Source: Candidatus Acidulodesulfobacterium acidiphilum (GTDB lineage Bacteria > SZUA-79 > Acidulodesulfobacterales > Acidulodesulfobacteraceae). Taken from it: a DNA stretch of 64,000 nt. The stretch covers positions 3,824-67,823 of the forward strand of contig SHMQ01000012.1 in NCBI GenBank assembly GCA_008534395.1. Reading direction: 5' to 3'. Numbering within the stretch: position 1 is the first letter of the stretch; the number at the start of each line of letters is the position of its first letter. This document shows, in pieces, positions 43,444 through 61,094 of the stretch. Position numbers and translations under genes: made by a program. The notes under the pieces are model-generated. The model did not search any database. It saw nothing but the letters and a program-made list of their open reading frames with translations, and was not told where the DNA came from.

Positions 43444-43519
43444 AGGCGCGTAGCTCAGGGGTTAGAGCACTACCTTGACACGGTAGGGGTCGGCGGTTCG
43501 AGACCGCCCGTGCCTACCA
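43444..43519 (+). tRNA. tRNA-Val (anticodon GAC)
   Basis: A complete 76-nt tRNA with encoded CCA. The acceptor AGGCGCG pairs with CGTGCCT, the D stem is GCTC/GAGC, the anticodon stem TACC/GGTA encloses TTGACAC (anticodon GAC), and the T arm is GGCGG-TTCGAGA-CCGCC. Its 3' half is also the left attachment site of the island; the integrated element leaves the gene intact. Confidence 0.96.
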
Positions 43520-43522
43520 GTA
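43475..43522 (+). repeat. attL: 3' half of tRNA-Val
   Basis: This 48-base stretch, from the anticodon loop through CCA plus three bases, is repeated exactly at 61047-61094 in the same orientation. Similarity continues weakly just beyond (AAACCGCA and TAAATA). It is the left border of the integrated element, 147 bases before the integrase start. Confidence 0.92.
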
Positions 43523-43668
43523 TAAACCGCAATAAATAAGCCTTTCCAGACTCCCTTAATAAATTTTATATTGATTATATTTTGCACAAATTTTATAATT
43601 TTTATAGAATTTTTGTCCCAAATTTGTCCCAAATTTTTTAAAAGAATTTACAAGCAAGGAGAACGAAA

Positions 43669-44790
43669 ATGTCCGGAAACATAAGGCTTAGAGGTAAATT
43701 TTACCATTACGACTTTATGATAGACGGCAAACGTTATAAAGGTTCTACCAAAACAAGCGACAAAAAGCTTGCCGAGCATATAGCGGATACGATTAAAGCG
43801 GATTTGCTCAGGAAAAAGCACGACTTGCCGACTACGGTAGATTATATTTTTGAAGACTTGTGGAAAATATATTTAGATTCGCAGGCAACAGCGTTAACCA
43901 CTCAAAAAGTAAAAAGATGGATATCTAAACATTTTTTACCTGTTTTTAAGAATAAGAAAATTGCTGAAATCAATAACGACCAAATAGAAAATTATAGATT
44001 AAAAAGGCGACTTGAGATATTATCTATGCCTAAAAATATCGGCAAAAAAGAATCCGAAGTTTCATTTGCATATCTAAATAAAGAGATTTTAATTCTTTCA
44101 AATTTCTTTAACTTCTGTATCAAGAAAGGCTATATCGATAAGAACCCTTGCGTCGGCATTAAAAAACTAAACGAATTATCCCGCCTTAAAACATTATCCG
44201 ACGAAGACATAGGGAAGCTCATTAACGGAGCTACGAATAAGCTTACAAAAGATTTAATATCTTTTTTGATATATACGGGTTGCCGCAAAGGCGAAGCTCT
44301 AAATCTTAAATGGGACGACGTGGACTTAAAGAACGGAGTTATTGCAATTAAGGCGACGAAGACCAGATACGACAGGCGTATCCCTATTTCCGCCCCATTG
44401 GAAGCCGTTTTAACCGGCATTGAAAGAAATCAAGACTGTCCATACGTATTTAATCGAAACGGAGTAAAATTGACGGATTTTAAACGTTCCTTTCATACCG
44501 CCTGCCGCAATGCCGGATTAAAAGATTTGCATATCCACGACTTAAGGCACGTATTTGCAAGCGCTCTTACCATGAGCGACGTATCACTTTATAAGACGGG
44601 AATACTCTTGGGACACCGGACGCCTAACATGACCCAGAGATACGCCCATTTAAAGCCCGAAGAGTTAAAAAAAGAGATAGAAAAGGCGTTCGGCAAGAAA
44701 AATGAAGATAAAGAGGAAGAAATCAAACGAGAAGAATACGAAAAAGCTTTGGAGATTATAAGGAAATACGAAAAAAGCGGCGGTAAATAA
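43669..44790 (+). CDS. int: Tyrosine site-specific integrase
   Basis: Integrates and excises the island at tRNA-Val. An N-terminal AP2-like arm-binding region (FYHYDFMIDGKRYKGSTKTSDK) and a SAM-like core-binding domain precede the catalytic domain. The catalytic residues are all visible: Arg206 in TGCRKGEALNLKW, Lys near 231, His290/Arg293 in HIHDLRHVFA, His316 in LLGHRTPNMTQ and nucleophile Tyr325 in RYAHL. A charged tail follows. Length 373 is typical of tRNA-targeting integrases. An AAGGAG ribosome site is nine bases upstream. The intact residue set implies activity. Confidence 0.95.
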   Translation: MSGNIRLRGKFYHYDFMIDGKRYKGSTKTSDKKLAEHIADTIKADLLRKKHDLPTTVDYIFEDLWKIYLDSQATALTTQKVKRWISKHFLPVFKNKKIAEINNDQIENYRLKRRLEILSMPKNIGKKESEVSFAYLNKEILILSNFFNFCIKKGYIDKNPCVGIKKLNELSRLKTLSDEDIGKLINGATNKLTKDLISFLIYTGCRKGEALNLKWDDVDLKNGVIAIKATKTRYDRRIPISAPLEAVLTGIERNQDCPYVFNRNGVKLTDFKRSFHTACRNAGLKDLHIHDLRHVFASALTMSDVSLYKTGILLGHRTPNMTQRYAHLKPEELKKEIEKAFGKKNEDKEEEIKREEYEKALEIIRKYEKSGGK

Positions 44791-44825
44791 TTACGCCTAT
44801 AGTCTTCATTTCGGTCGTAGAATTT

Positions 44826-44883
44826 GTAACAAATTATGTTACGCCGTAACGTATTGCTTTACGTTAGTAACATAATTTGTTAC
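44826..44883. repeat. Nested palindromes downstream of the integrase
   Basis: GTAACAAATTATGTTAC (44826-44842) and its exact complement (44867-44883) enclose a second perfect pair, TAACGTA (44847-44853) and TACGTTA (44860-44866). Each outer arm is itself a dyad, GTAAC-7 bases-GTTAC. Further ACGTA words follow to about 44925. It may be an operator cluster, a recombination or transfer site, or a terminator for the integrase; there is no T-run, so a binding site is favoured. Confidence 0.7.
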
Positions 44884-44957
44884 ATTCGCAACGTATTTTT
44901 TTACGGTATTACGTCGAGAAAGCGGTTGACGACGTGCGGAATAAAAAATAAAGCTGA

Positions 44958-45101
44958 TTACCGCATATGGTAGTTATATAATTTTTCGGCAAATTCATCC
45001 AATATTTTATTTTTTGCCGCTTCTATTTCAGGAATAAAATCATCCTCTATCATTTTTTTAAGATTTATAACCGACCTCCTTTCTAATTCTAATTTGCGCA
45101 T
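44958..45101 (-). CDS. Possible small helical protein, with a stopped upstream in-frame segment
   Basis: A 47-codon frame (MRKLELERRSVINLKKMIED onward, ending HMR) with helical, charged character. In the same frame upstream, an ATG at 45188 with a strong AAGGGGG ribosome site starts 13 codons that end in TAA (45147-45149), after which the frame is open again into this one. So this may be an intact short gene, or a 75-residue gene broken by a nonsense change. The rest of the gap 44791-45345 holds only the palindromes and AT-rich sequence. No homology is recognised. Confidence 0.35.
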   Translation of the reverse strand: MRKLELERRSVINLKKMIEDDFIPEIEAAKNKILDEFAEKLYNYHMR

Positions 45102-59582: not shown

Positions 59583-59605
59583 CTTAAAGCTAAAAAACTA
59601 AATTT

Positions 59606-59989
59606 ATGCCTAAACATAAAAATATCGAATTATTTAAGCACATAGGTTTTAAAATTAGAATAAAAAGGCGTGAGCTTAATCTTTCTCAGGAAAAATTAGC
59701 CGAGATGCTTAACGTTGCATACACGCAGGTTTATAATTATGAAACGGGCAGGTTTAAGATTCCATTGGATTATCTTCTTGAATTAGCTGATATTTTTAAC
59801 GTTGATTTAAATTATTTTTTATCTGATTTTAATTCAGGCAAAAAAGTAAAACTTGAAAATGAAAATTTAGATCTTAATAAAACAATAGGGATGGTTAAAG
59901 AAATTTATAATTTAAACGACGAAAATTTAATATACCTGCTAAAAAAAAGTGTAGAATCGATATATAACATAGTTAAGGCTAAAAATTAA
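59606..59989 (+). CDS. XRE-family transcriptional regulator
   Basis: A 127-residue DNA-binding protein. The Cro/CI-type helix-turn-helix covers about residues 10-68: IGFKIRIKRRELNLSQEKLAEMLNVAYTQVYNYETGRFKIPLDYLLELADIF. The C-terminal part (KLENENLDLNKTIGMVKEIYNL) is a short helical oligomerisation region with no peptidase domain. It is divergent from the surface genes, with symmetrical sites between, and is followed by ORF6N. It is probably the island's repressor. Confidence 0.9.
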   Translation: MPKHKNIELFKHIGFKIRIKRRELNLSQEKLAEMLNVAYTQVYNYETGRFKIPLDYLLELADIFNVDLNYFLSDFNSGKKVKLENENLDLNKTIGMVKEIYNLNDENLIYLLKKSVESIYNIVKAKN

Positions 59990-60055
59990 AACAGCTTAAA
60001 AATTAAAATAAATTAATTTTAACATTCCAATTTCAAAAATATTTTATAAATCATC

Positions 60056-60568
60056 ATGGAACGCGTTCCTATAGAAATCATAGAAAGTAAAATATATCTA
60101 ATAAGAAACCAGAGGGTTATGCTTGATAGCGATATTGCCGAACTTTACGGCGTTACTACCAAAAGATTTAACGAGCAGGTTAAAAGAAATATAGAACGTT
60201 TTCCTGAAGATTTTATGTTTAAACTGACTGATGAAGAATATAAAATCTTGAGGTCGCAATTTGCGACCTCAAATATTATTCATGGCGGCAGACGTTATAC
60301 TCCATACGTATTTACCGAACATGGCGCAATTATGGCGGCAACTATTCTTAACTCTTCAAAAGCCGTTGAAATGAGCATCTTTGTCGTAAGGGCGTTTGTA
60401 AAGTTAAGAGAGATTACGTCCAGCAACAAAGAACTTGCCCAAAAATTAAACGAACTTGAGAAGAAATATGAAAAACACGATAAAGATATAAAAGCTATAA
60501 TAGATGCTATAAGGCAGTTGATGACCCCTCCGGAAAAAACAAAAAGAAAAATAGGTTTTATAAAATAA
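60056..60568 (+). CDS. ORF6N-domain protein (phage-type)
   Basis: A 170-residue protein with an N-terminal ORF6N domain: IYLIRNQRVMLDSDIAELYGV, RFNEQVKRNIERFPEDFMFKL, LRSQFATSN, GGRRYTPYVFTEHGAIMAATIL. The C-terminal 60 residues form a coiled coil (ELAQKLNELEKKYEKHDKDI). ORF6N proteins are common on phages and islands and probably bind DNA; the exact function is unknown. It lies 66 bp after the XRE gene on the same strand. A 25-bp palindrome lies within its coding region. Confidence 0.9.
   Translation: MERVPIEIIESKIYLIRNQRVMLDSDIAELYGVTTKRFNEQVKRNIERFPEDFMFKLTDEEYKILRSQFATSNIIHGGRRYTPYVFTEHGAIMAATILNSSKAVEMSIFVVRAFVKLREITSSNKELAQKLNELEKKYEKHDKDIKAIIDAIRQLMTPPEKTKRKIGFIK
60248..60272. repeat. 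25-bp perfect palindrome inside the ORF6N gene
   Basis: TTGAGGTCGCAA (60248-60259), one central T, then the exact complement (60261-60272). It encodes the conserved LRSQFATS segment. Such a long dyad in coding sequence is unusual and could be an operator, a hairpin in the message, or a recombination site. Confidence 0.7.
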
Positions 60569-60638
60569 AAAATGTAGTTTAATTATTTGACATAAATAAG
60601 ACGGCAAGACTGCGGCAAGACAAAAATATATAGGATTT

Positions 60639-60827
60639 TCAAGGCTTGTCTAACCGTCTTATGCTGTCTTGCATATTTTTTAAATTTATAAATAAATTAT
60701 TTTTTAGATTTTTTAAAGCAAATTTAACTAAGTTGCCGATAAACCTGCCTATAAAAAATGAACCTATAAAAACTATAGCTAAAATAAGTATATCGTATAT
60801 GAAGATAAAATTAATATGATTAAACAT
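60639..60827 (-). CDS. Small single-helix membrane protein
   Basis: A 62-residue protein with a long N-terminal hydrophobic helix (about 5-35, IFIYDILILAIVFIGSFFIGRFIG) and a basic amphipathic tail. A good ribosome site (GGAGG) is about 12 bases before the ATG. No family is recognised. It is convergent with ORF6N at the right edge of the island. Confidence 0.5.
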   Translation of the reverse strand: MFNHINFIFIYDILILAIVFIGSFFIGRFIGNLVKFALKNLKNNLFINLKNMQDSIRRLDKP

Positions 60828-61046
60828 AAGCCCTTAACCTCCGCTTAATTATTTTTTATTTTTTTTAAAGCCTTTTTTAAAAAAATTTATAAAATTTTTA
60901 AAAAAAACTGTCACACGACTGTCACACAAAATATCCGAATGTATAGAATATATGGAAAATATCGCAATATATATAAAGCCGTCAAAGCGTTAATAAATCT
61001 ATAAGTGAAGGTAGAAAGCCCATCTCGTTAATTTTAATGTTTTTCT

Positions 61047-61094
61047 TTGACACGGTAGGGGTCGGCGGTTCGAGACCGCCCGTGCCTACCAGTA
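61047..61094 (+). repeat. attR: copy of the tRNA-Val 3' half
   Basis: This is an exact 48-base copy of 43475-43522, without the 5' half of the tRNA, so it cannot make a tRNA. It marks the right border of the island. Upstream sequence differs from the tRNA, as expected for the element side. Confidence 0.92.

Follow-up and report, generated by a model that had tools for sequence, protein, structure and literature searches.

A genuine block of foreign genes is inserted at the tRNA-Val(GAC) gene of the acid-mine bacterium Candidatus Acidulodesulfobacterium acidiphilum, within a 64,000-nucleotide (nt) stretch that we refer to as the window (contig SHMQ01000012.1, positions 3,824 to 67,823). In the 2.09 Mb focal genome (G000), the window occupies the end of contig C12, and the inserted segment spans 17.5 kb between the intact tRNA gene and a displaced copy of its 3′ part. 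We consider it likely that the segment is an island, a probable fusion of two island types (A and B) beside a deleted clan-A element, and that it carries a lambda-like integrase whose core-binding domain would read the anticodon stem of the target tRNA. The relatives of this integrase, here called clan A, appear to choose among tRNA genes by a few such residues. Comparisons were made with Candidatus Acidulidesulfobacter-type metagenome assemblies, and coordinates without a contig refer to the window.

The tRNA-Val locus and its integrase

The tRNA-Val(GAC) gene is the only tRNA gene in the window. Its overlapping left attachment site (attL) and the right attachment site (attR) share an exact 48-bp core found at just these two sites in the window (Table 1), with similarity continuing past the exact core to a total of 71 nt at 93%. 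An exact match of this length is far beyond chance. The displaced 3′ fragment has the same orientation as the intact gene, as in tRNA islands generally, and a third copy of the Val core occurs elsewhere in the focal genome (C5:8924-8974).

The integrase open reading frame (ORF) starts 149 nt past the CCA of the tRNA. Residues R206, K231, H290-x-x-R293, H316 and Y325 are invariant in a 28-sequence alignment, giving the complete RKHRH/W-Y set, and the structural model aligns to lambda Int (PDB 1z1b) over 352 columns. The initial annotation had placed attL over an intact tRNA-Val(GAC), with an exact attR copy and an integrase bearing all catalytic residues just inside attL, and each of these statements was borne out. 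Relatives with 46-85% identity to the focal integrase come from the same bacterial family, with at most 23 matches per genome. A viral origin was considered and rejected; viral contigs hold only relatives of 24-29% identity.

Target use across clan A

Clan members were sampled for their similarity to the focal integrase, and the tree was built from 83 proteins of at least 300 amino acids (aa) with an assigned tRNA, copies removed. These proteins use 22 anticodons (13 amino acids) and require at least 49 target changes on the tree. Shuffled labels require 59-69, so targets are partly inherited. Inclusion of shorter genes brings the total to 25 tRNA species, three of them Leu tRNAs with long variable arms. 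Integrase pairs of at least 90% identity always share a tRNA (20/20), and pairs of 80-90% identity do so in 23 of 52 cases. The attR copies of the clan start at tRNA positions 21-32, mostly 25-32.

Ten clan integrases (L114, L052, L123, L125, L126, L143, L189, L218, L221 and L225) adjoin attR and face away from it, reversed with respect to the rest of the clan; nine of the ten form one clade. At a further locus (L207), attR lies ∼15.8 kb downstream of tRNA-Arg(ACG), and the displaced fragment has several altered T-arm bases but the same anticodon loop as the intact gene, which would fit replacement of the 3′ half of the host tRNA by the element.

A fixed distance between anticodon and arm motif

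In 54 of 59 loci, a left-end motif, GCAGTAAATAAGCCTTTC, occurs at a distance of 52 nt from the first base of the anticodon, and the focal island carries it at this distance as GCAATAAATAAGCCTTTC (the P′ arm; Table 1). The offset past the CCA compensates for tRNA length, being 9 nt in most tRNAs, 10 in Gln, whose 3′ part is one nt shorter, and 1 in Leu(tag), whose 3′ part is 8 nt longer. None of 100000 permutations gave an equally tight spacing, and the Gln and Leu targets arose in several distinct parts of the integrase tree. A sister group with a variant motif has spacings of 53-55, likewise tied to the anticodon. Fifty-two bp correspond to approximately five helical turns.

The spacing was also examined blind to the integrases, by a motif scan of 31 genomes in which they were ignored. 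Matches were confined to the bacterial family (control matches: three in the family, one elsewhere). An anticodon stood exactly 52 nt upstream at 36 of the 51 sites read, and at four more the CCA was at the expected distance with an insertion in the T loop. Palindromic inserts of ∼20-40 bp occur at one T-loop spot (GGTTCG/ATCC) in displaced fragments of Met, Gln, Arg and Pro tRNAs (loci L267, L274, L277, L283, L252 and L293-L304, in G004, G006, G009, G010, G012, G014 and G015), and related repeats are found outside tRNA sequence too.

The modelled N-terminal domain has a beta-sheet plus helix fold, and conserved arms are present at clan loci. Because the fold resembles that of lambda Int, we infer that the arm motif is bound by this domain.

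Core-binding residues follow the anticodon stem

For the analysis of target recognition, one protein was kept per same-target group (n = 61). Pairs sharing a tRNA had excess identity of 7.3 points over residues 61-110 and 6.4 points over residues 111-170 (0/5000 label shuffles), and the same shuffles of the 61 groups gave no excess in the arm or catalytic domain. Nine alignment columns were family-wise significant, all of them core-binding: 80, 81, 84 and 85 in one helix, and 132, 134, 135, 138 and 141 at the start of the next. Residue 134 followed bases 30-31 in all 61 groups, being Arg with GA or GC (51/51), Lys with GG (6/6) and Ala or Ser with CC (4/4). Arg81 accompanied G29 in 22 of 25 groups versus 1 of 36 others (P = 2e-12), or, counted over distinct stems, 9/10 versus 0/10.

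Both rules were then applied to 14 further clan genes, many truncated, whose core-binding segment lay outside the training set. The residue-134 rule held in 14/14, where a constant guess of Arg would score 8/14, and the residue-81 rule in 12/14. The held-out genes at Asn(gtt), predicted to have Lys, and at Gly(gcc), predicted to have Ala or Ser, both fit, and both tRNAs were absent from the training set. These results bear on the idea that the DNA core alone sets the target, the protein needing any anticodon stem-loop and identity between the element and chromosomal sites (attP/attB) picking the tRNA. The anticodon arm does in every case form an inverted repeat around a 7-nt loop, and the arm motifs are conserved across targets; the idea is nevertheless weakened by core-binding residues that track stem bases in independent groups and in held-out genes, and we regard it as very unlikely.

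Two pairs illustrate the pattern. The focal integrase and that of L109 (Met) are 85% identical, and eight of their nine code residues differ; L052, a Val integrase of the reversed-orientation lineage, is far less like the focal protein and differs at one of the nine. Such a pattern could also arise if core-binding domains had been swapped between elements along with the tRNA core, without selection on single residues, and the confinement of the excess identity to one domain is in line with this. Yet identical codons are no more frequent in that domain among same-tRNA pairs (52.7% versus 52.7%), which argues against recent exchange, and the focal and L052 proteins differ at 40 of the 101 remaining core-binding positions. 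Recent exchange was rejected on the codon result; older exchanges may remain, and we hold domain swapping overall to be a doubtful explanation.

Taken as a recognition code, residues 80, 81, 84, 85 and 132-141 of the two helices would read stem pairs 27-31, so that a handful of residues could re-aim the integrase at nearly any tRNA gene while the arm stays fixed at 52 bp; we lean towards this proposal. In the literature searched, mostly outside subscription journals, we found no report of integrase residues that predict the tRNA stem.

Probable composite origin of the segment

The attR-side ∼3 kb of the segment (58127-61096) is collinear with the attR side of a 10.97-kb tRNA-Val island in G022, with lipoprotein, beta-barrel and helix-turn-helix (HTH) genes followed by the right end. 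That island (type B) is intact and has a different integrase, ∼35% identical to the focal one and facing the tRNA. A type-B right end also stands beside the third Val core of the focal genome, where the match extends over 505 bp (Table 1). Most clan-A attR cores are preceded at a constant distance by a right arm, TTAATAA-ATTAATAAGTTAT; it was not found at the focal attR, which scored at most 3.3 versus at least 10 in 11 of 13 clan-A attR copies. Because of the type-B match and the missing clan-A arm, the segment is probably a fusion of a clan-A left part and a right part from this second tRNA-Val island type. A right arm inside the island was considered as a mark of the inner junction; the best match (14.3, at 58704) lies in very A+T-rich DNA and was unconvincing.

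The initial annotation had described a complete unit, and an ordinary single tRNA-Val island, with the many targets of its relatives due to old divergence, would fit the two exact cores and the intact integrase; tandem and hotspot tRNA islands are, moreover, common (PMC4383910). Against it stand the attR-side 3 kb and right end, which belong with the type-B gene order, the clan-A right arm lacking at attR, and integrases that are 85-88% identical at different tRNAs and 66% identical at the same one. We consider a single island unlikely and doubt that the unit is complete.

The site in related genomes

In G005, of the same genus, one contig spans the tRNA-Val locus with both its left flank (33166-43540, ∼90%) and its right flank (61939-64000, 92%). 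The focal segment is absent there, and the flanks are separated by other remnants (2.65 kb), among which are an insertion sequence fragment and a relative of the focal outer-membrane gene. Since G005 lacks the segment and has other remnants in its place, the segment is a polymorphic insertion at a previously used site. An empty site in relatives, as earlier expected, was thus found only in part: both flanks are there without the segment, but the site is not virgin. The expectation that sequence after 61094 would be its plain flank failed. This DNA is, as read from its remaining parts, an internally deleted older clan-A element that is intact in G019; a left arm motif, a 5′ integrase remnant and a right end remain (Table 1), and the matching right-end stretch in the G019 island lies ∼100 nt inside attR. 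Chromosomal similarity to G005 resumes at 61939. A copy of the 48-bp core without the island, which had been named as a possible objection, does exist at C5:8924-8974; it has the same right end, reflects related elements and leaves the island standing. In G002:C55 (L068), ∼300 bp that contain no tRNA-Val(GAC) connect the left flank, which reaches 42467, with the right flank, which starts at 62665.

Gene content

The adjoining Mod and Res genes (Table 1) form a predicted type III restriction-modification pair; the database match of Res covers its helicase part only, and the nuclease motif was read from the sequence. No relative of Res was found in the 18 other family genomes searched, and the 609-aa membrane protein was found weakly in one of them (1/18), so that a cargo common to relatives was rejected. 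A cargo stretch (52996-54800) has a 91-92% counterpart on the C5 element; this element bears conjugation and partition-like genes, their functions being read from sequence alone.

No structural PHROG was found in the ten island proteins scanned and no structural Pfam family, so the segment does not qualify as a prophage; nor were relaxase or conjugation genes recognised between the repeats in Pfam and PHROG scans, as an integrative and conjugative element would have. The description of the cargo as defence-like and surface genes (restriction-modification, outer-membrane and lipoprotein genes) without structural phage or conjugation genes thus agrees with the profile scans.

The conjugative-looking region of C5 (G000:C5:8471-78518; L045, L069, L070 and L089) extends from the Val core with the focal right end to tRNA-Pro(CGG), and its other side yielded no Pro fragment. 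A closed circle was rejected for C5, which has non-overlapping ends and chromosomal DNA in its right part. A 119-nt inverted-repeat stretch (window 56355-56472) occurs twice near tRNA-Val in G005 (83-86%), one copy adjoining a related outer-membrane gene.

Table 1. Features of the tRNA-Val island and of the DNA to its right, in window coordinates.
Feature	Position	Strand	Basis
tRNA-Val(GAC), intact, integration target	43444..43519	+	ARAGORN
attL core, 48 bp, tRNA position 32 to CCA plus GTA (3 nt)	43475..43522	+	exact repeat
Left (P′) arm motif GCAATAAATAAGCCTTTC, 52 nt from first anticodon base	43529..43546	+	ruler analysis, pattern scan
Clan-A tyrosine integrase, 373 aa; arm-binding, core-binding and catalytic domains	43669..44790	+	Pfam/PHROG, alignment, model
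Membrane protein, 609 aa, unknown family	45346..47175	-	no family match; one weak partial relative in 18 family genomes
PIN-domain protein	47208..48116	-	Pfam PIN_3/PIN_2
Type III-like Mod DNA methyltransferase	48502..50337	-	Pfam N6_N4_Mtase, PADLOC MTase_III, EcoP15I Mod 4zcf
Res-like helicase, C-terminal PD-ExK-like motif, paired with Mod	50341..52917	-	Pfam ResIII
Small putative secreted protein, common to C5 element	52983..53510	-	92% nt to G000:C5
HARE-HTH + PD-(D/E)XK nuclease-like protein, common to C5 element	53507..54265	-	Pfam; 92% nt
Small protein, HAD-like DLDG motif, common to C5 element	54268..54807	-	91% nt to C5; PHROG 420
Short tyrosine recombinase without N-terminal domains	55068..55745	-	Pfam; tblastn, 42% relative on C5 conjugative element
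Outer-membrane protein	56529..57509	-	weak Autotransporter match; 36% relative at same site in G005
Type-B attR-side block: lipoprotein (-), beta-barrel protein (-), HTH regulator (+)	57626..59989		order as beside G022 attR; nt 71-74%
ORF6N antirepressor-like protein	60056..60568	+	Pfam ORF6N, PHROG anti-repressor
Type-B right end	60593..61046	+	97.8% to G000:C5:8471-8974; 77-88% to G022 island end
attR core, exact copy	61047..61094	+	exact repeat
Left arm motif of older clan-A element, outside attR	61101..61118	+	sequence; homologous to G019 left end
5′ remnant of older element's integrase gene	61253..61467	+	tblastn to G019 integrase residues 8-77
Older element's right end, AbrB-like antitoxin remnant	61465..61969	-	91.7% to G019 stretch

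Proposed mechanism

In the mechanism we propose, the N-terminal domain would hold the conserved arm sites, as in lambda Int, and the core-binding domain would bind both halves of the anticodon stem (27-31 and 39-43), the code residues contacting the stem bases. Strand exchange within the 7-bp anticodon loop would then leave the gene restored by the tRNA 3′ half that the element carries. A change of target would take mutation of a few residues together with acquisition of the 3′ half of another tRNA, and the segment may still be mobile.

Several points weigh against this interpretation. Its support is wholly comparative and comes from metagenome assemblies. Label shuffles control relatedness only partly, the data of the pair comparison also served to pick the nine columns, and the held-out test covered only the 81 and 134 rules, some of its genes being truncated relatives. 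One Met stem type breaks the Arg81 rule. Because bases of the stem pair across the two strands, the strand that is read is indistinguishable. Lastly, few sequences underlie the attR arm and the composite origin, and a search within the segment did not reveal the inner junction at which its two parts would meet.

Relation to known systems and significance

The clan-A integrase resembles lambda Int in its full-length three-domain fold, its catalytic residues and its layout of core and predicted arm sites; it differs in sequence (17% identity), in the many tRNA anticodon stem-loops targeted by the clan and in an arm spacing fixed to the anticodon. The islands catalogued by Islander include tRNA islands with an anticodon-centred attP and crossover (class A), and tandem arrays (PMC4383910). 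The focal locus likewise has a tRNA gene, an integrase, a displaced 3′ fragment, a predicted crossover at the anticodon and a tandem arrangement, whereas here one clan spans ∼25 tRNA species in one family and the focal segment looks composite. Integrases of the pT26-2 family in Thermococcales use 14 tRNA targets, reportedly switch within tRNA classes and have genes that are split on integration (PMC8371274). They share with clan A the switching of related integrases among tRNA genes, but in clan A the gene stays whole and long-arm Leu tRNAs are used beside others. Integrase clades of gram-negative phage-inducible chromosomal islands (PICIs) are each unified by one attB, with repeated evolution of new sites (PMC10111431); clan-A islands likewise evolve new sites repeatedly, and unlike in those clades close relatives differ in target.

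The mechanism by which integrases change target has been called unclear and poorly understood (PMC8371274). Clan A offers dozens of close integrases with ∼25 tRNA targets and a constant arm geometry in one family, in which residues predict stem bases in held-out genes, and the proposed code would supply concrete residues to swap. According to Campbell (2003), as cited in PMC8371274, tRNA genes are targeted since their anticodon stem-loop already has the form of a core site, a proposal that the clan data support.

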